Source: Dolosigranulum savutiense (GTDB lineage Bacteria; Bacillota; Bacilli; Lactobacillales; Carnobacteriaceae_A). From it: a stretch of DNA of 64,000 nt. Position 1 is the first letter of the stretch. The number at the start of each line of letters is the position of its first letter. Position numbers and translations under genes: made by a program. The stretch covers positions 1,550,001 through 1,614,000 of the forward strand of contig NZ_CP142435.1 in NCBI RefSeq assembly GCF_039830095.1, written 5' to 3'. Below the pieces are notes generated by a model. That model made no database searches and had not been told where the DNA came from. It saw only the letters and a program-made list of their open reading frames with translations. Below are positions 35,224 to 46,318 of the stretch, piece by piece.

Positions 35224-36759
35224 ATGAACATGAAAAAATCAATTATAACAACATTAGCTAGTGTGACTCTTTTATTAGGTGCTTGCAGCGGGGAAGTGGA
35301 TCAGACTAAGGAGGAAACTGAATTAATTCCGGAAGAATCACAGGATGAAACAGCGTCAGAAATACCTGAAACAGATTCCAATTCTGGTGCATCTGAGGAA
35401 ATATATGCGACTGACCCTGATGAAGTACAGGATTCATACGATGTAGTAGTGGTTGGGTCTGGTGGAGCTGGATTAGCGGCAGCTATTTCAGCTCATGATG
35501 CTGGTGCTAGTGTAGCGGTATTCGAGAAAATGCCGGTTGCTGGTGGGAATACAAATGGAGCCAGTGCGGGGATGAATGCGTCCGAGACCATCTTCCAAGA
35601 AGCTGAAGGGATTGAAGATTCAAAAGAAAAATTCTTTGAGGAATCACTTGAAGGTGGAAAAGGAACCAATGATCAAGCATTACTGCGCTATTTAACAGAC
35701 AATGCAGCAGATGCCATTGAATGGTTAGACAGTTTAGGGATTCCATTAAATAATTTAACAACGACAGGTGGCATGAGTGTTCCACGTGCTCACCGACCGG
35801 AAGATGGATCACCTGTTGGAGAATACTTGGTAGATGGCTTAATTGAAAACTTGAGTGAGCGTGATATTCCATTATTCCTCAATTCAGAAGTAAATGGTTT
35901 AATGCAAGAAGATGGAGGAGTGACAGGGATTGAGGTTACAGTTGGTCAAACGAATCAAACAACTATCCAGGCGAACTCAACCATTATAACAACGGGTGGA
36001 TTCGGCGCAAGTTCAGACATGTTACAAGAGTTCGAGCCTGATGCAGCTGATTCGGTCACAACGAATCATGAAGGAGCAACCGGGGATGGGATTAAGATGG
36101 CTCAAGAAGTTGGTGCTGATGTAGTTGATATGGAACACGTTCAAGTACATCCCACTGTGGATCAAACAGAGGGCTTTTTAATTACCGAAGCTGTTCGTGG
36201 AGAAGGTGCTATTTTAGTTAATCAGAAAGGCGAGCGCTTCTTTAATGAATTAGATACAAGAGATGCCGTATCTGAAGCTATTCAGTCGTTAGATGAAGGT
36301 TATTCGTATTTGATTGTTGATCAAGCATTGCGTGAACGCGTGCCAGCTATTGATTTTTATGAATCACAAGGATTAGTTCAGAAGGGAGCAACCTTAGCTG
36401 AATTAGCTGAAGAAATTGATGTAGAGGCTGAAACGTTGGAAGCAACCGTTGCAACTTGGAATGAACAGGTTCAAGCCGGAGAAGATCCTGATTTTGGACG
36501 TGAGACAGGGATGGAGCACCAACTGTCTGAAGCCCCGTATTATGCGATTAAAATAGCACCAGGCGTACACCACACGATGGGTGGATTGCGTATTAATACT
36601 GAAACAGCTGTATTAGATAAAGCGGGAGAAGCTATTCCAGGCTTATACGCAGCGGGAGAAGTAACAGGAGGAATTCACGGTCAGAATCGTATCGGAGGAA
36701 ATGCAGTAGCTGACATTATTGTCTTCGGCCGTCATGCTGGTGAAGAAGCAGCGAAATAG
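35224..36759 (+). CDS. Surface lipoprotein flavoprotein, fumarate-reductase-like
   Basis: A 511-residue FAD protein of the flavocytochrome c / fumarate reductase family, probably anchored outside the cell by lipid. A signal peptide ends in the lipobox LGAC with Cys21. An acidic linker (22-70) leads to the FAD fold (VVVVGSGGAGLAAA, 74-87). Residues aligned by spacing with Shewanella Fcc3 catalytic residues are all present: His309, Thr321, Glu322, Arg325, Arg346, His449 and Arg489, so fumarate or a similar enoate is the likely substrate. There is no heme or FMN-binding domain, so the electron source is unknown. The start may be ATG 35224 or 35230. The gene stands alone between terminators. Confidence 0.85.
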   Translation: MNMKKSIITTLASVTLLLGACSGEVDQTKEETELIPEESQDETASEIPETDSNSGASEEIYATDPDEVQDSYDVVVVGSGGAGLAAAISAHDAGASVAVFEKMPVAGGNTNGASAGMNASETIFQEAEGIEDSKEKFFEESLEGGKGTNDQALLRYLTDNAADAIEWLDSLGIPLNNLTTTGGMSVPRAHRPEDGSPVGEYLVDGLIENLSERDIPLFLNSEVNGLMQEDGGVTGIEVTVGQTNQTTIQANSTIITTGGFGASSDMLQEFEPDAADSVTTNHEGATGDGIKMAQEVGADVVDMEHVQVHPTVDQTEGFLITEAVRGEGAILVNQKGERFFNELDTRDAVSEAIQSLDEGYSYLIVDQALRERVPAIDFYESQGLVQKGATLAELAEEIDVEAETLEATVATWNEQVQAGEDPDFGRETGMEHQLSEAPYYAIKIAPGVHHTMGGLRINTETAVLDKAGEAIPGLYAAGEVTGGIHGQNRIGGNAVADIIVFGRHAGEEAAK

Positions 36760-36849: not shown

Positions 36850-37668
36850 CTATGTTAGTTCAATCCCAAAGTACTTCGCCAAGTATCGGGCAAGGCCTTG
36901 TTCGTCGTTGGTATAATCAGTGATATCATTAGCAATTTTTTTAATAGATGGGATGGCATTCTTCATGGCAACGCCGTGTCCAGCAAATTGGATCATTTCG
37001 TAGTCATTATCTTCATCACCAAGTGCGATGATATCCTTTTGAGGAATATTGTAGTAGTCGGCAATTTTTTCAACTCCCATTGCCTTTTGTACACCGGCTG
37101 CAACAATTTCTAAGCAAGGTGCCTTGCCTCCCCAAGTTCTAATTTCTACTTTATCGCCGTAGTCCTTAATAATTTGTTTTTCAATTTTATGTTGAAGGTG
37201 CTGACTTGGTGTAAAAACATTCACAGCAGTGGGTTGTGCTACTAGGTCATTCGTATATGGCTCAGCCGCTTCTGGTCCATCGGGGAAAAAGTCCTCATAA
37301 GGAATGTAGGGGCTACTTGTATAGACATGATGACCCACTTCAGCAGAAATTAATTGAATTTCTTTTTTGTCTTTTAATTGGAATAAGTCATGCATTAAAT
37401 CCGCAGATAAATATTTATGGTATGCGTATGCCCAATCAGCATGATTTGGGAAATGGCACCAAGCCCCGTTAAAGTTTACAATGGGGGTATCTAAGCCTAG
37501 TGTATCATAATGTTGATAACTTGTTCGATACGGGCGCCCAGTGACAATTGAGACAATATGTCCTTGTTTACGCAGTTGTTGAATAACGTGAATAGTTAGC
37601 GGATCAATCGTTGTTTGTTCATTTAAAGTTGTTCCATCTAGATCAATAGCAATTAACTTTTTATTCAT
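36850..37668 (-). CDS. Cof-type HAD-IIB family phosphatase
   Basis: A 272-residue haloacid-dehalogenase hydrolase of the Cof/YidA group. Motif I is AIDLDGTTLNE near residues 7-17, motif II is VSIVTGRP near 40, the cap domain lies in the middle, and motif III is IIALGDEDNDYEMIQFAG near 208-225. Such enzymes dephosphorylate sugar phosphates and cofactors such as flavin mononucleotide or pyridoxal phosphate, with broad overlap, so the substrate cannot be assigned. GGAGGCC precedes the ATG on the - strand. It converges on the flavoprotein gene. Confidence 0.9.
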   Translation of the reverse strand: MNKKLIAIDLDGTTLNEQTTIDPLTIHVIQQLRKQGHIVSIVTGRPYRTSYQHYDTLGLDTPIVNFNGAWCHFPNHADWAYAYHKYLSADLMHDLFQLKDKKEIQLISAEVGHHVYTSSPYIPYEDFFPDGPEAAEPYTNDLVAQPTAVNVFTPSQHLQHKIEKQIIKDYGDKVEIRTWGGKAPCLEIVAAGVQKAMGVEKIADYYNIPQKDIIALGDEDNDYEMIQFAGHGVAMKNAIPSIKKIANDITDYTNDEQGLARYLAKYFGIELT

Positions 37669-37857: not shown

Positions 37858-38199
37858 ATGTCTGAAGAGAATGCAACATGGACAGACGCAGATATTGAAC
37901 AGGTTAAGAAAAAAGTGATGCAAGTGATGGAGACAGTGATTGATCCGGAGTTAGGAATTGATATTGTTAACTTGGGATTGGTCTATGAAGTGAATGTTTT
38001 CAATGGTGGGTATTGTGAGATTAAAATTACGTTGACGACGATGGGATGTCCGCTTGCAGATGTGATTACGGGAGATATTATTGAAGCAGTGGATAAAGTA
38101 GATGAGGTTACGGAAACTGATGTGAAGCTCGTCTGGTACCCGGCTTGGGATACCTCACGAATGACGCGTTATGCACGAATCGCATTGGGTATACGATAA
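37858..38199 (+). CDS. DUF59 / MIP18-family iron-sulfur assembly factor (SufT/PaaD-like)
   Basis: A 113-residue single-domain DUF59 protein. The family helps mature iron-sulfur proteins; Staphylococcus SufT is one example. Conserved features are VIDPELGIDIVNLGLVYEV near residues 26-44, the single cysteine in TTMGCPLADVI (about residue 66) and the C-terminal VWYPAWDTSRMT. No suf genes are near. It is followed after 69 bp by the Hsp100 gene and appears to head that operon. Confidence 0.9.
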   Translation: MSEENATWTDADIEQVKKKVMQVMETVIDPELGIDIVNLGLVYEVNVFNGGYCEIKITLTTMGCPLADVITGDIIEAVDKVDEVTETDVKLVWYPAWDTSRMTRYARIALGIR

Positions 38200-38268
38200 T
38201 TTTTGCGACAACATGAAGCTACTGAGCACGAATGAAGAAGGATAAGTAGAAGGAATGAAGGTGAGTGG

Positions 38269-40491
38269 ATGAACTATACAGCGGGGGTTGAGTTGGCGGT
38301 TGAGAAAGCAAGACAAAAGGCATATGACCAGTCTCATCGTCGATTAGAGATACCGCATATGTGGAGTGTGTTGATTGAAGAGGAACGAACGCAAGCGGTT
38401 TATCGGGAACTTCAAGTGGATCTAGAGAAATTACAAGAAGTGGTTGAAGCAGAGATGGCGAAATTATCCACTACATCTAAAGAACAATCACCCCAAGATA
38501 AACAGATGAGTCATCAACTCTACCATGTGTTCAAAGATGCACGGGACTTAGCGACGAAATATGAGTATGAAGCGATTAATATTGATTTATTATTAGTAAG
38601 TGTGATGAATCGTTATTATCATCCGATTGTACAAGAGATTGCACAGTATGGGATTGGTCGGGCTGAGATTTTTCGGGCTATTCGAATTTTAAATGGCGAG
38701 AGTAATATGTCTGAAGAGTCGGAAGAACGTTACCTAGACCAGTATGCAGTTAATTTGTCAGCATTGAATCGACAAGGAGAGATCGGTCATGTTGTTGGAC
38801 GGGATGAGGAGACGGACCACATTATTCAAATTCTTTCACGGAAGACAAAAAATAATCCGATTCTAATCGGTGAGCCAGGAGTGGGGAAGACAGCAATTGT
38901 TGAAGGATTGACAGAGCGGCTTGCTTCAACTGAAGCACCAGTTAATTTACAAGGAGCAACAATTTATTCGCTTAGTTTAGGCGCATTAGTGGCAGGAGCT
39001 TCTTTTCGCGGGGAATTCGAAGCCCGGATGAAGGCTGTACTGGAAGAATTGCAAGCGGAGGAAAAAGCGATATTATTTATCGATGAGATACATACGATTG
39101 TTGGCGCTGGGAATGCTGAAGGTTCTTTAGATGCAGGGAACTTGATGAAGCCTTTACTCGCACGGGGAACGATTAAAGTGATTGGCTCAACAACGCGTTC
39201 AGAGTACCGCAAGCACTTCCAAAAAGATCGGGCACTAGTTCGTCGTTTCCAGCCTATCCAAATTAAAGAACCATCCGTGGAAGAGACAATAACAATTTTA
39301 CACGGGATTCGTCCTGAGTTTGAGGCATTCCACCAGATTAATATTTCGGATGAGGCCTTGGAACTGTCAGCAACACTATCGAAGCGGTATATTCCAGAAC
39401 GCCACTTACCTGATAAAGCGATCGATGTGATGGATGAAGCGGCGGCTAAGTTGCGCATTACGACCGGAATAGACGCTGCTGATCGTACTGTTGACAATCA
39501 GGCTATTTATAGTTTGATTGCGAAGAAGACGGGGATTCCAGTTCATAAGTTACAGTCTGATGAACGCAAGCAGTTAATGCACTTAGAAGAGACATTATCT
39601 TCGCAGGTTATTGGTCAAACGGAAGCGGTCAGTGCCGTTTCAGATGCGATTATTCGTTCGCGTGTCGGTATTCAGGATCCCAATCGACCATTAGGATCAT
39701 TTTTATTTTTAGGACCTACTGGAGTGGGAAAGACCGAATTGGCGAAAGTACTAGCCAGGGAATTGTTTGAGTCAGAGGATAATATGATTCGCTTAGATAT
39801 GAGTGAATATATGGAAAAACATTCAGTTTCACAGTTAATTGGTTCTCCACCAGGCTATGTTGGTCATGATGATGGTGGTCAGTTGACAGAGGCTGTTCGA
39901 TTTAATCCGTATGCGATTATTTTATTTGATGAAGTAGAAAAAGCACATAAAGATGTCTTTAACTTATTATTACAAGTGTTGGATGATGGTGTATTAACAG
40001 ATGCAAAAGGGCGCCGTGTTGACTTTAAAAATACCATTCTTATTTTAACGAGTAATATTGGAGCGCATTTATTGCTCGATCAAGTGAAGGCAGGAGACGA
40101 TACGCCTGAAATTTCTTCAGAGGTAAGAGAGACGTTGCATGAAATGTTGCGTCAGCATTTTAGACCAGAATTTTTAAATCGAATTGATGAAGTGGTGACC
40201 TTTAAGCCACTTTCGATAGCAGTCATGGCAGGGATCGTTGAATTACAATTAGCAACGTTACAAGAGCGACTTCAGGCCCAGGATATTCGATTATCCATCA
40301 CTGATCAAGCAAAACAATGGATTGCACAAGAAGCTTATGATCCAGCTTATGGTGCGCGCCCGATTAGACGTTTTTTGACAACGCATTTGGAAACACCGAT
40401 TGCTAAAATGATCATTGCGGAAGGAGTTGAAGTGGGTCAAAAATTGACAATAGATATTGTGAATAAATCCTTGAAGATTAATGTAGAGTAA
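38269..40491 (+). CDS. Hsp100/Clp ATPase with ClpA-like first and ClpB-like second module, no middle domain
   Basis: A 740-residue double AAA+ unfoldase. Residues 1-145 form a diverged Clp N-domain. The first module has GEPGVGKT (201-208) and FIDE (270-273) and reads like ClpA ([36 protein letters not shown]). Only about 20 residues (397-416) stand where ClpB has its roughly 120-residue coiled-coil M-domain. The second module (GPTGVGKT 482-489, PPGYVG pore loop) ends like ClpB. The segment after TSNIGA lacks the [I/V/L]GF-type ClpP-docking loop seen in ClpE here. The first pore loop has Phe (GASFRGEF) in place of the usual Tyr. It is 12 bp upstream of dnaE. Its partner and role are unknown. 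Confidence 0.85.
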
Positions 40492-40503: not shown

Positions 40504-43500
40504 ATGACGGTTGTGAATCTACAGGTAAAAAGCTCATATACATTGTTGGAGAGTCCGATTAAGGTAAAAGACTTAGTGCAACAAGCAGCTGAGATGAATT
40601 ATAGTGCCATTGCACTGACAGATCATAATGTTTTATATGGTGCGGTTGAATTTTATCAAGTAGCAAAAAAGTATGGGATCAAGCCGATAATTGGTCTAAC
40701 ATTAGATGCAGAAGCTTTCTCTAATGCGAGTGCAACCTATCCGCTTATTTTATTAGCACGCGACTTTAGAGGATACCAAGCGTTAATAAAATTGTCGAGT
40801 TACCAACGTAAAATGCAACAGGCGGTACCACTTGACCGTATAAAGGAACTATCGTCATCTTTAATTGTCATCGTTCCAACACTTCAAAGTGAGCTATATC
40901 AGCTATATCTTGGCCAAAAAGAGGAAACTATTAGGGAATTAGTCGCAGATATAGCGACGATGTTTCCAGAGAGTTTTTTAGGGATCAGTCCGGAGCAGGA
41001 GAGTACGTTTGTTCAATTACTAGAAGCAGCAGGTGGAGAACTAGTGGCTTTGGGCGATGTGCGATATCTTAAGGCTGAGGATGCGTTTGCGACCGAAGTG
41101 CTGAAGGCAATTGATCGTGGAGAAGCAGTTGATCGGCAAACTGTTTTGACGGATAAGTATGCATTGAAGACCCCAGAAGAATTTAGGGCTATTTTTCAGA
41201 ACAAGGGATGGCAAGCAGCCGTGGAACGTACAGCGTTAATTGCCGATCGTATTGATATTGAACTTCCCCTTGACCAACAGTTATTACCGAAGTATCAGAC
41301 ACCTGAACAGCTGGATGCGGATAGTTACTTAAGGCAATTAGCTGAAAAAGGTTTGCAACGCCAGGTAGAAGAAGTCACTGAAGTTTATCGCGAACGTCTC
41401 GATAAAGAGTTATCGGTTATTTTAACGATGGGATTTTCTGATTATTTTTTAATTGTATGGGATATTATGGCTTATGCCAGGCGTGAGCAGATTGAAACAG
41501 GTTTTGGGCGAGGATCAGCAGCGGCTTCGCTCGTTGCTTATGCTCTTGAAATTACACATATTGATCCACTGAAGTATGATTTGTTGTTCGAGCGCTTTTT
41601 GAATGAGCAGCGGTATACGATGCCGGATATTGATTTGGACTTCCCCGATAATAAACGCGATAAAATATTGCAGTACGTGCGCGATACATATGGAGATGAG
41701 CATGCTGCTCAAATCTCAACATTTAGTACATTAGCTGCTAAAAGTTCTGTTCGTGATACGTTGCGCGTATTTGGGGCAGATAATGAGGAGATGAAGCGGT
41801 GGTCCCAGGCTATTCCGACTTCCCAACAGCGTCATATTAGTTTGGAAATTGCATACGAGGAATCGGAGAGTTTGCGTGAACTCGTCGCTCGGAGCAATCG
41901 AAATAAACAAATTTTTCAGATTGCTAAAACAATTGAAGGTTTACCGAGAAATGTATCGACCCATGCGGCGGGGGTAGTGATTTCTGATATTCCTCTCGAA
42001 GAAAATGTCCCTTTGCAACTAGGGAGCGGTGAACTGTTGACCACACAATACACGATGGAAGATACCGAAGCGATTGGCTTGTTGAAGATGGACTTCTTGG
42101 CTTTGAAAAACCTGACAATTTTAGCCAATTGTTTTCATTATTCAGCATATGAGCAGTCAGGTGGAGCACTGACCAAAAACGATATCCCACTCAATGATCC
42201 ACCAACGTTAAAGTTGTTTGCAAGAGGCGATACGAATGGCATTTTTCAGTTTGAATCAGAGGGAATAAAGCAAGTACTTAAAAATATGCATCCATCCTCG
42301 TTTGAAGATATTGTGGCGACTAATGCGCTCTATCGTCCCGGACCGATGAAACAAATTCAGCACTTTATTGCACGAAAACATGGGAAAGAAGCCATCCAAT
42401 ACCCACATGAAGATTTGAAGTCAATTCTTGAAGTGACTTATGGTGTCATGGTGTATCAAGAACAGGTGATGCAAGTAGCAACCACCTTGGCAGGCTATTC
42501 ACTTTCTGAAGCGGATCAGCTGAGACGGACCATGTCTAAAAAAATTCAGTCAGAAATGGATGAAGGGCGAGATGATTTTATTCAAGGGGCATTAGAACAA
42601 GGCTATAGTCAAGAGACAGCTACTCAAGTGTATGATTATATCGAACACTTTGCTAATTATGGATTTAATCGAGCGCATGCGGTGGCCTATTCGATGGTGG
42701 CTTATCAACTAGCTTATATGAAGGTGCACTATCCAAAGTCATTTTTTGCAGCAATTTTAACCGCTGAATTTGGTCATGATAAAAAACAAGCGCTTTATAA
42801 TTTAGAAATGAACGATCGTGGGATTGCAACAATTGGTCCCGACATAAATCGGAGTATTGGCTTGTTTTCTGTGGTTGATGAAGGAATTTTATTCGGGTTA
42901 AGTACCGTTAAGGGGATTACGAGTGAATTTTCGCGTCATATTATTGCTAAACGGCAAGCTGTTGGACAATTTAAAGACCTAATTCATTTTATTGAGCAAT
43001 TAGATGAGCGGTGGTTGAAGGTGGATTACATTCGTCCGTTAATTGAAGTGGGCGCCTTCGATAAGTTGCCGCATAACCGCCAAACCTTGCTGAGTTCATT
43101 AGCGGATATTATTCAGTCGGTTAAGATTAGTGGACAAAACATGGAATTATTTCATGTCATGAAGCCACGAATGCAACAAGCGCCTGATTTTTCGCTCAAA
43201 GAGAAATTGGATATGGAGATGAACTTAACTGGATTTTATTTTTCCGGACATCCAACAAAGCAATATCAATCTTTACGCGAAGTATGGCCACTGAGTTATA
43301 TTGCCAAAGCAGAAGAAGGCTCGCCGAAGTACATCTTAGCTAGTGTGACCGATATTCATATTATCCAAACGAAAAAAGGATTACCGATGTCATTTGTGAC
43401 ATTGGCGGACGAAACTGGTGTAATGAAAATGATTTTGTTTCCTGACCAGCATCGTCAATTTATTAAGACATTTAAACAAGATGATATTCTCATTGTAAAA

Positions 43501-43818
43501 GGAAAAATTGCTCCAGATATTAAACAAAAAGAAGACTTAAATATCATCGCTACCGATATAAAACAGGCGGCTCCACTGCTTGAACAAGCCGCCCATAAAT
43601 TGTTTTTGCGATTTAACTCATTGCAAGAACAAATGCAAGCGTTCCGAAAAATCCAGCAACTGCTCAAAAAAGAGCCGGGTATGTGTCCGGTTGTCATATT
43701 TGATGCGGCTACTGGACAAAAAAAGCGGTTAAAAAAAGAATATTATTATAATTTAGATGAAAAAACGCTTACGGCAATGGATGACATTTTAGGTGCGGAC
43801 AACGTTGTGTTACAATAG
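40504..43818 (+). CDS. dnaE: DNA polymerase III subunit alpha, DnaE type
   Basis: DnaE is a C-family replicative polymerase; in Firmicutes it extends primers alongside PolC. The 1104-residue protein has an N-terminal PHP domain, the polymerase core with the catalytic aspartates in PDIDLDF (Asp375, Asp377), the GFGRGSAAASLVAYAL segment, a helix-hairpin-helix region and a C-terminal OB domain. The PHP domain lacks the usual HxH metal motif: the expected RVHSDY reads QVKSSY at residues 7-12, so no proofreading activity is expected. AAGGAG precedes the ATG. It starts 12 bp after the Hsp100 gene. Confidence 0.97.
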   Translation: MTVVNLQVKSSYTLLESPIKVKDLVQQAAEMNYSAIALTDHNVLYGAVEFYQVAKKYGIKPIIGLTLDAEAFSNASATYPLILLARDFRGYQALIKLSSYQRKMQQAVPLDRIKELSSSLIVIVPTLQSELYQLYLGQKEETIRELVADIATMFPESFLGISPEQESTFVQLLEAAGGELVALGDVRYLKAEDAFATEVLKAIDRGEAVDRQTVLTDKYALKTPEEFRAIFQNKGWQAAVERTALIADRIDIELPLDQQLLPKYQTPEQLDADSYLRQLAEKGLQRQVEEVTEVYRERLDKELSVILTMGFSDYFLIVWDIMAYARREQIETGFGRGSAAASLVAYALEITHIDPLKYDLLFERFLNEQRYTMPDIDLDFPDNKRDKILQYVRDTYGDEHAAQISTFSTLAAKSSVRDTLRVFGADNEEMKRWSQAIPTSQQRHISLEIAYEESESLRELVARSNRNKQIFQIAKTIEGLPRNVSTHAAGVVISDIPLEENVPLQLGSGELLTTQYTMEDTEAIGLLKMDFLALKNLTILANCFHYSAYEQSGGALTKNDIPLNDPPTLKLFARGDTNGIFQFESEGIKQVLKNMHPSSFEDIVATNALYRPGPMKQIQHFIARKHGKEAIQYPHEDLKSILEVTYGVMVYQEQVMQVATTLAGYSLSEADQLRRTMSKKIQSEMDEGRDDFIQGALEQGYSQETATQVYDYIEHFANYGFNRAHAVAYSMVAYQLAYMKVHYPKSFFAAILTAEFGHDKKQALYNLEMNDRGIATIGPDINRSIGLFSVVDEGILFGLSTVKGITSEFSRHIIAKRQAVGQFKDLIHFIEQLDERWLKVDYIRPLIEVGAFDKLPHNRQTLLSSLADIIQSVKISGQNMELFHVMKPRMQQAPDFSLKEKLDMEMNLTGFYFSGHPTKQYQSLREVWPLSYIAKAEEGSPKYILASVTDIHIIQTKKGLPMSFVTLADETGVMKMILFPDQHRQFIKTFKQDDILIVKGKIAPDIKQKEDLNIIATDIKQAAPLLEQAAHKLFLRFNSLQEQMQAFRKIQQLLKKEPGMCPVVIFDAATGQKKRLKKEYYYNLDEKTLTAMDDILGADNVVLQ

Positions 43819-43847: not shown

Positions 43848-44849
<1,002 letters not shown>

Positions 44850-44890
44850 TTAAGAATTATAATAATTTAATAGAAGGTGAGTTATTTAAA

Positions 44891-46318
44891 ATGAAAAACA
44901 CAAAAATTGTTTGTACAATCGGACCAGCTAGTGAATCACCAGAAATCTTAGAACAGTTAATTGAATCGGGCATGAATGTCGCTCGATTAAACTTTTCACA
45001 TGGGGATCATGAAGAGCACTTAGGACGTATTAAAAATATCCGCGAAATTTCTAATAAGCTAAACAAACATATCGGAATTATGTTGGATACGAAAGGGCCA
45101 GAAATCAGAACCCACACAATGAAAGACGGCGCCATTACTATTATTAAGGGAAACACACTTCGTATCGCGATGGAAGAAGTTGTTGGAACAGAAGAGAAAT
45201 TCTCCATCACATACGACAACTTGATTCATGATGTAAATGTAGGTTCAAGCATCCTATTAGATGATGGTCTAATTGATCTTCAAGTAAAAGAAATCGACAA
45301 TGAGAATAACGAAATTGTTGTAAAAGCCTTGAATACAGGGGTCTTAAAGAACAAAAAAGGGGTTAATGTACCGGGTGTTTCTGTTAAATTACCTGGTTTA
45401 ACTGAAAAAGACCGTGCTGACATCAAATTTGGTCTTGAAAATGACATCGACTACATCGCAGCATCATTCGTTCGTCGTCAATCTGACGTTCAAGAAATTA
45501 TCGATTTATTGGAAGAATATGATATGGAACACGTTCAAATCATTCCTAAAATCGAAAATCAAGAAGGTGTTGATAACTTACGAGAAATCGTTGAAGTTTC
45601 TGATGGATTGATGGTGGCACGTGGTGACTTAGGGGTGGAAATTCCTGCTGAAGAAGTCCCTGTTGTTCAAAAAATGATGATTCATTACATGAACAAAGTT
45701 GGTAAACCGGTTATTACTGCTACTCAAATGCTTGATTCTATGCAGGTCAACCCACGACCAACTCGAGCAGAAGCTTCAGACGTTGCGAATGCAATCTATG
45801 ATGGAACCGATGCAATTATGCTTTCAGGTGAAACAGCCGCTGGAGATTACCCAGTACAAGCTGTACAAACAATGGCAAATATTGCGACACGTACAGAATT
45901 AGCCTTGAACCAAATGAACGGCATTTCACACTTAGATGATGTAGATAATTGTGACGCGACAGAAGCAATTGGTCAAGCTGTCGGCCATACTGCGAAGAAT
46001 ATGAACATTGAAACAGTGGTTGCAGCCACAAATTCAGGTCACACAGCACGTATGATTTCAAAAGTGCGTCCAGCTTCCACCATTCTCGCTGTAACTTTCT
46101 CAGAGCGTACTGCGCGTGGATTAGCACTTTCATGGGGTGTAAAACCAATTATTACTGAACGCACTGACTCAACGGATGCCTTGTTCGACCTAGCAACTGA
46201 AAAAGCTGTTGAAGGTGGCTTCGCAAAACCGGGTGATCACATTATTATTACAGCAGGTGTTCCTGTTGGCGAAACAGGTACTACAAACGTCATGAAAATT
46301 CAAACTATTGAAGAATAA
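44891..46318 (+). CDS. pyk: Pyruvate kinase
   Basis: Pyruvate kinase makes ATP and pyruvate from phosphoenolpyruvate. The 475-residue protein has the N-terminal [10 protein letters not shown], the metal and substrate site [11 protein letters not shown] near residues 237-247, the signature [14 protein letters not shown] and the [12 protein letters not shown] motif, then the C-terminal regulatory domain. It lacks the extra PEP-utiliser-like domain that lengthens the Bacillus enzyme to about 585 residues, so it is the short form. GAAGGTGAG precedes the ATG. It shares a transcript with pfkA and is followed by a terminator. Confidence 0.97.

Follow-up and report, generated by a model that had tools for sequence, protein, structure and literature searches.

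A putative ClpB derivative without an M-domain at the family clpB locus of Dolosigranulum savutiense

What is an Hsp100 protein that carries two AAA+ modules and has neither an M-domain nor a ClpP loop? The question is raised by a 740-residue protein (here P0001) encoded in a 64,000-nucleotide stretch of the Dolosigranulum savutiense genome (NZ_CP142435.1, positions 1,550,001 to 1,614,000; the window hereafter). The initial annotation, made from this sequence, took it for a possible hybrid of a ClpA-like first and a ClpB-like second module, perhaps from an uncharacterised Lactobacillales subfamily. Here, we propose with a probability of roughly 0.5 that P0001 is the genome's ClpB, still at its ancestral locus, after loss of the whole M-domain, and that it threads substrates as a chaperone uncoupled from DnaK. 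The annotation had not considered this simplest reading, in which the M-domain was lost from a ClpB still encoded at the clpB locus. The [ILV]GF loop is taken as the ClpP contact, and the Hsp100 families go by their usual names.

The reading frame starts with ATG and runs through 740 residues with zero internal stops. Pfam places AAA at residues 198-328 and AAA_2 at 473-642, together with AAA_lid_9 and ClpB_D2-small, and the Walker A/B, sensor-1, arginine-finger and pore stretches of both modules align with those of relatives, which bears out the two intact AAA+ modules of the annotation, as a ClpB has them. The M-domain is a different matter. From the AIDxxDEA motif to GIP there are 30 residues in P0001, versus 147 in E. 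coli ClpB and 147-151 in 18 of the 20 ClpBs of relatives (the pattern did not match the other two), and residues 396-408 of P0001, 13 in number, align against 130-135 residues in all 20. The protein has neither the long coiled coil that ClpB carries at the end of nucleotide-binding domain 1 (NBD1) nor the short M-domain of ClpL, ClpC and ClpE; it is without any M-domain, as the annotation had stated. A search model built from six M-domains found none elsewhere in the genome at E≤10; the same model picked up that of ClpB at E≤3e-59 in all five clpB-bearing control genomes, and of two clpB-less controls one stayed blank and the other gave one match at 0.049. In the AlphaFold model (mean predicted local distance difference test 87.5, predicted template modelling score 0.55; the input alignment was of related-locus proteins, mostly ClpC) helices 382-399 and 410-421 are connected by a short joint, with no coiled coil between them, so that no hidden M-domain of the kind the annotation allowed for is seen.

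The ClpP loop is missing as well. A motif search found no [ILV]GF after TSNIGA in P0001, as the annotation had noticed, while the ClpE encoded in the same window carries VGF and both the ClpC and the ClpE of this genome have the loop. Over the whole protein the wider pattern [ILVMP]G[FLY] matches solely the PGY of the second pore loop, so there is no ClpP loop elsewhere. P0001 hence has neither the [ILV]GF/L of ClpA nor the [ILV]GF of ClpC and ClpE, and it agrees with ClpB in having no such loop; the usual docking parts for DnaK and for ClpP are both absent, as initially described. The first pore loop reads ASFRG. The Phe in it is real, and it is no sign of strangeness as the annotation had it, because KFRG occurs in two of the six ClpBs of relatives that were printed. 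We hold this anatomy of two modules, no M-domain and no ClpP loop with high confidence.

The position of the gene in the genome points to clpB. In 7/7 clpB-bearing genomes of the bacterial family, a HAD hydrolase gene on the minus strand is followed by DUF59, clpB, dnaE, pfkA and pyk, which is the order of the window; therefore, the Hsp100 gene occupies the clpB locus of the family, as expected of a ClpB. Outside the family the same genes accompany one of 13 clpB loci (L144), with ~3.5 kb separating DUF59 from clpB. Among the 19 family genomes in which clpB was not detected, 18 have DUF59 and then dnaE directly, and the remaining one, G001, has three DUF59 matches, none with a dnaE seen next to it. 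The D. savutiense genome (1.98 Mb, one contig) gave three double-ring Hsp100s, namely, ClpC, ClpE and P0001, and no second ClpB was found in the genome search. In relatives that have a ClpB, this ClpB is the protein closest to P0001.

Taken domain by domain, most of the protein is nearest to ClpB. Mean identities to ClpB/ClpC/ClpE/ClpA are 20.6/17.5/11.1/15.2% in the N-domain (44.8% among ClpBs themselves), 57.5/51.9/50.5/51.7% in NBD1 and 60.5/52.6/50.4/40.6% in the second nucleotide-binding domain (NBD2). Models of segments, given as ClpB/ClpC/ClpA/ClpE, score 81/34/19/0 bits with the N-domain, 199/194/177/177 with residues 156-295, 132/145/133/125 with residues 296-397 and 471/425/302/369 with NBD2 from residue 441. 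By these scores the N-domain and NBD2 are of ClpB type and not of ClpA type, and the ClpB-like second module of the annotation stands. Pfam Clp_N was not found in P0001 at E≤0.001, though it is present in two of the relatives' ClpBs. The best PDB sequence match to the whole protein is ClpB 1qvr (715 bits vs 658 for the best ClpC). When each module was given its own tree, P0001 fell with the Lactobacillales ClpBs in both, at 98/100 for NBD1 (bootstrap not settled) and 99/100 for NBD2, and not at the different positions that the hybrid idea had anticipated; a quick NBD1 tree minus the ClpA, ClpL-like and L017 rows had it nearest ClpB, in no starred set. In the full NBD1 tree the ClpC rows of the family group with a Limosilactobacillus ClpC (L026), and on this grouping and the annotation rests the assignment of the family to Lactobacillales. 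Two further comparisons leave the family undecided: TIGR03346 (ClpB) is the top NCBIfam model at 901.8 bits, under its equivalog cut-off of 1232.1, and this rank carries no weight because the genome's ClpC scores 990 with the same model; a fold search with the model of P0001 does not decide either, because solved ClpC, ClpB and ClpA structures all match well. Together, the best-ClpB scores of the N-domain, NBD2 and (by 5 bits only) residues 156-295, the trees and the synteny favour one ClpB origin over modules of different origin. Judged from its sequence, P0001 is a ClpB derivative and not a canonical ClpB, because one defining feature, the M-domain, is missing.

The ClpA-type wording that the annotation had reported in the first module is real by residue counts, and it is local, lying in residues 296-397 next to the absent M-domain. 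There, P0001 departs from all ClpBs at 40/102 positions, 11 of which carry the E. coli ClpA residue, while in residues 156-295 the count is 0/30. The wording is not exclusive to P0001, as other Hsp100 rows have ClpA matches in the same segment (L025 8/23, L050 9/30, L058 8/29; the genome's ClpC 1/29 and ClpE 4/32). Such a pattern could come from recombination, a single event having swapped the second half of NBD1 plus the M-domain for sequence of ClpA or ClpC type that includes a short linker. In line with such an event, residues 296-397 are equidistant from ClpB/ClpC/ClpA/ClpE (mean identity 53.2/52.9/52.9/51.2%) while residues 156-295 are 60.5% identical to ClpB vs 51-52% to other families; the ClpC model (145 bits) and PDB ClpC chains fit the segment best; and the approximately unbiased (AU) test does not reject NBD1 with ClpA (p 0.49), nor the N-domain plus NBD1 in two alternatives (p 0.19 and 0.18). 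However, the AU tests reject no placement at all, because the branch of P0001 is very long, and the scores of 133 (ClpA) and 145 (ClpC) stay under those of genuine members (175 and 189 for two ClpAs, 166 for one ClpC, each with the model of its own family). The matches listed from an NBD1 search in 398 genomes of the phylum, of 54-61% identity, include frames of both ClpB and ClpC size. Divergence is also seen in the first half of NBD1 (58.6-61.4% to relatives' ClpBs), and drift with convergence between two M-domain-less proteins at the face where the M-domain docks explains the matches equally well. We consider the recombination improbable and keep it as a low rival because the AU tests reject nothing, the ClpB-diagnostic residues are largely lost (2/13 retained in NBD1, 2/6 in linker plus NBD2) and the segment leans to ClpC. 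Of the hybrid idea, the exchange of a whole module is not supported and a small recombinant patch in NBD1 survives (AU p 0.30-0.55). In our reading, the wording of residues 296-397 reflects drift, with some convergence, at a docking face left empty; the segment belongs clearly to none of the families.

Is such a protein kept as a motor, or is it fading? P0001 retains 63/69 (NBD1) and 68/68 (NBD2) of the residues that never vary among the ClpB, ClpC, ClpE and ClpA rows, against an identity to the ClpB majority elsewhere of 79/173 and 133/247, an excess with binomial p ~1e-15 and ~5e-19, respectively. A second count took the residues invariant in the relatives' ClpBs only. P0001 keeps 45/81 of them in NBD1 and 44/54 in NBD2, E. 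coli ClpB 61/81 and 46/54 (NBD1 difference from P0001, Fisher p 0.013), row L038 53/81 and 44/54, row L025 50/81 and 38/54, and the ClpC of the genome 46/81 and 37/54. On this count NBD1 is fallen to the level of a different Hsp100 family and NBD2 is not. The same is seen in pairwise identities with three relatives (G011, G008, G005). NBD1 of P0001 is 57.9, 55.8 and 55.8% identical to their ClpBs, where the genome's ClpC and ClpE reach 76.4-76.9% and 78.8-81.3% in the same comparison and the ClpBs of G011 and G005 share 81.4%; in NBD2 the values are 57.8-61.3% for P0001, 73.0-74.5% for ClpC, 71.2-71.8% for ClpE and 66.0% between the two ClpBs. By identity, NBD2 is near the usual divergence of a ClpB NBD2, and the excess in rate is therefore that of the Hsp100 gene itself, mainly in NBD1. 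End branches in the module trees (NBD1, NBD2) are 1.24 and 0.80 for P0001, 0.22 and 0.19 for ClpC and 0.14 and 0.14 for ClpE; they are not time-matched because G007 supplies a closer relative for ClpC and ClpE, and the pairwise identities were used instead.

These rates bear on the main rival, a dwindling ClpB: the loss of the M-domain would have ended DnaK-dependent disaggregation, and the gene would be leaving, as it has in relatives without clpB, with only a minor holding or remodelling role. The distribution of clpB in the family fits this, as do the NBD1 identities (56-58% to relatives' ClpBs, where ClpC and ClpE have 76-81%) and the failure to find a CtsR-like site upstream (see below). 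Among 27 family genomes (loci L173-L198), ClpB (863-890 amino acids) occurs in seven besides the locus of P0001 and was not found in 19, three of which are only 71-85% complete. A ClpC tree of 25/27 of these genomes, leaving out G016 (fragmented) and G017 (no ClpC found), places the clpB-less G007 as sister of the D. savutiense genome (100/99; both branches long), and the clpB-less label needs four changes, three of them forced by starred branches, probably reflecting repeated loss of clpB. What speaks for a protein still in use is the 740-residue open frame with its catalytic motifs, the retention of invariant residues far over background, which free decay would not give, and an NBD2 that evolves hardly faster than usual. 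We think the dwindling ClpB unlikely, though it is the most serious of the alternatives.

No second full-length match to P0001 was among the matches listed for 1,136 genomes of the phylum (G000-G1135; only G000, which holds P0001), and at order level, within 395 sampled genomes, D. savutiense alone had one among the matches listed, which does not support the proposed Lactobacillales subfamily. Please note that the wider searches scored two first-look candidates per genome and that rare cases could be missed. Plasmid DNA held no near match to the gene; the plasmid protein search gave 49.7% at best, in two pieces in each of the best 15 of 2304 rows, and a contig scan listed mostly ClpCs, the best of those listed at 49%. 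Three candidates were considered and dropped. The frame in G408:C64 (L171) has a short linker, but its closest family is ClpC and a TGF loop is present, and those in G197:C17 (725 amino acids) and G374:C43 (752 amino acids) keep the M-domain-sized gap. On their own account, L171 (G408:C64:15966-17684, 678 codons), from another family of the class, is ClpC-like, appears to lack both the N-domain and the short M-domain of ClpC, and has its TGF loop after TSNVGA; the 725-residue clpB frame (L163) starts near the N-domain end, by frameshift or alternative start; and L161 (G003:C56) is a 705-residue Hsp100 that goes with ClpE in the NBD2 tree on a long branch, without the usual TSN.G loop wording. 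In the literature no natural bacterial ClpB without M-domain was named among the matches listed, in a search that covered few subscription journals; PMC6929125, followed as a possible case, means ClpA, and the accessible part of PMC4428496 does not contain the phrases sought.

Expression was approached through the upstream region, with CtsR and CIRCE consensus sequences that we presume to be the standard ones. In the 353 bp upstream of the Hsp100 gene, the best CtsR-like site has five mismatches with both spacers scanned; in 300 randomly drawn stretches of the window, the best site was as poor or worse in 77 and had ≤2 mismatches in 11. The best sites elsewhere in the genome have one mismatch at ctsR-clpC (CtsR identified by Pfam), zero at clpE, one at hrcA and three at clpP, and in the 64-kb window no site other than that of clpE has ≤1 mismatch. 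A CtsR site with ≤2 mismatches precedes 6/12 of the relatives' clpBs and within the family 1/7, so its lack is not peculiar to P0001. No CIRCE site was found in the window, and a promoter and terminator scan did no better than on shuffled sequence. The gene starts 69 bp after DUF59 and ends 12 bp before dnaE; therefore, co-transcription is likely, and the gene is probably expressed with its neighbours. As a separate observation, the clpBs of genera g9 and g6 (L129, L130, L132-L135) have CtsR-like sites never better than four mismatches, whereas sites with zero to two precede the clpBs of g4 and those at five loci from other families; the loss of CtsR control over clpB seems to have been separate from that of the M-domain.

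What could such a ClpB derivative do? According to the accessible part of PMC4436881, the M-domain both contacts Hsp70 at its ATPase domain and keeps the motor of ClpB restrained, and the DnaK site defined by structure is motif 2 of the M-domain. We suggest that the coiled-coil M-domain (~120 residues) was lost entirely from ClpB at its ancestral locus and that the product would be a hexameric two-ring threading ATPase. As the M-domain docks DnaK and represses the motor, this product should ignore DnaK and run unbraked. Substrates would be taken directly through its diverged N-domain, by analogy with other Hsp100s, and threaded by the well-kept second ring; it would be a stand-alone unfolding chaperone and not half of a DnaK-ClpB pair, and ClpP would not be fed. 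This stand-alone mechanism, resting on analogy, is tentative and falls slightly short of an even chance. More tentative still is the full evolutionary course, in which a ClpB lineage shed its M-domain in place and remodelled N-domain and NBD1 into a stand-alone threading chaperone with a ClpA-like vacated NBD1 face, the only one met in the searched genomes.

Two other functions have to be weighed at this point. P0001 might still cooperate with DnaK through other surfaces of its N-domain and NBD1: the genome has one DnaK, its gene inside a full hrcA-grpE-dnaK-dnaJ cluster, and Hsp70 contact with the N-terminal domain (NTD) and NBD1 of Hsp104 is cited in the accessible part of PMC7343390. The defined DnaK site, motif 2, is gone from P0001, and we rate the cooperation as quite improbable. 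It might also feed ClpP through a non-canonical contact, given its ClpA-like architecture and the one ClpP of the genome; with the [ILV]GF loop nowhere in the protein, a ClpB ancestry, and a ClpC and a ClpE that already carry the loop, this is very improbable.

Several results weigh against a stand-alone ClpB derivative as such. The AU test does not reject NBD1 outside the ClpB clade (p 0.55, the alternative tree even slightly better), nor NBD2 outside it (p 0.30), and a PDB search with the second half of NBD1 alone ranks ClpC chains best (116 bits; ClpB 108, ClpA 107). The NBD1 of P0001 retains ClpB-only invariants no better than ClpC (45 vs 46 of 81), and not significantly fewer than L038 (p 0.26) or L025 (p 0.52). 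Fast evolution also fits weakened constraint, and a ClpB without M-domain was seen in one genome only. M-domains are reported as essential for ClpB's own disaggregation (PMC4436881, accessible part), so a ClpB lacking it might have no activity toward aggregates, and in ClpL, M-domain mutants restricted to single rings were toxic in cells (PMC11006417, accessible part).

Known Hsp100s resemble P0001 in part. With ClpB (TIGR03346, the bacterial Hsp100 disaggregase) it shares the locus, N-domain, NBD2 and lack of a ClpP loop, whereas it has no M-domain, has lost most NBD1 hallmarks and scores under the TIGR03346 cut-off. Like ClpA, it joins two AAA+ modules without an M-domain and has the 11 common states in 296-397; E. 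coli ClpA, however, has an IGL ClpP loop, and the N-domain and NBD2 of P0001 score far lower with the ClpA models. According to the accessible parts of the respective papers, ClpL and ClpG are stand-alone with shortened M-domains and N-domains of their own, and the ClpL N-domain renders derepressed ClpB stand-alone (PMC11006417); Skd3 (human CLPB), without NTD, NBD1 and M-domain, is stand-alone and Hsp70-independent (PMC7343390); and ClpIb of Actinomycetota is a double-ring unfoldase with no LGF loop and no M-domain of ClpB length (PMC10149685). P0001 is like ClpL and ClpG in having no ClpP motif and in its expected DnaK independence, and unlike them in having no M-domain at all; it is like Skd3 in its ClpB-like AAA+ module and absent M-domain, but it keeps the NTD and NBD1 that Skd3 lacks, and Skd3 carries ankyrin repeats; and ClpIb differs in keeping an M-domain of about ClpC length.

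Table 1. The M-domain-less Hsp100 gene, its segments and its neighbours in the window.
Feature	Coordinates	Strand	Basis
M-domain-less ClpB derivative, 740 amino acids (P0001)	38269..40491	+	open reading frame, segment models, trees, synteny
N-terminal domain, residues 1-145, ClpB type, strongly diverged	38269..38703	+	ClpB model best
NBD1, residues 156-397; 156-295 nearest ClpB, 296-397 stripped of ClpB hallmarks	38734..39459	+	
Joint, residues 396-408, at the M-domain position of relatives' ClpBs (130-135 residues)	39454..39492	+	
NBD2, residues 418-735, ClpB type, best conserved part	39520..40473	+	identity, invariant residues
TSNIGA-to-RPEF stretch, residues 594-635, without [ILV]GF ClpP loop	40048..40173	+	motif search
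Cof-type HAD hydrolase, divergent neighbour, conserved in family	36850..37668	-	
DUF59 / FeS_assembly_P gene (PF01883), upstream neighbour of clpB in family	37858..38199	+	
69-bp gap upstream of the Hsp100 gene, without CtsR-like site	38200..38268	+	
dnaE, 12 bp downstream of the Hsp100 gene, downstream neighbour of clpB in family	40504..43818	+	
pfkA and pyk, next two genes, same order in relatives	43869..46318	+	

Two observations concern the surroundings. A second DUF59 gene in the genome (G000:C1:376912-377193, L199) shares 49-50% identity with the DUF59 gene next to the Hsp100 gene, and at 35224-36759 of the window, 90 bp from the HAD gene, lies a flavocytochrome c family protein gene whose product has a lipoprotein-type N-terminus (LLLGAC, a lipobox by eye).

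The dispensability of the M-domain and the dependence of ClpB on DnaK have been addressed in engineered proteins, by deletion or point mutation. In D. savutiense, evolution appears to have deleted the M-domain in place, with the motor kept and the partner ring drifting. If P0001 is active, it would allow one to test directly how a disaggregase can escape its dependence on DnaK; if it is inactive, it would be a snapshot of clpB being dismantled in a family where most of the searched genomes show no clpB.

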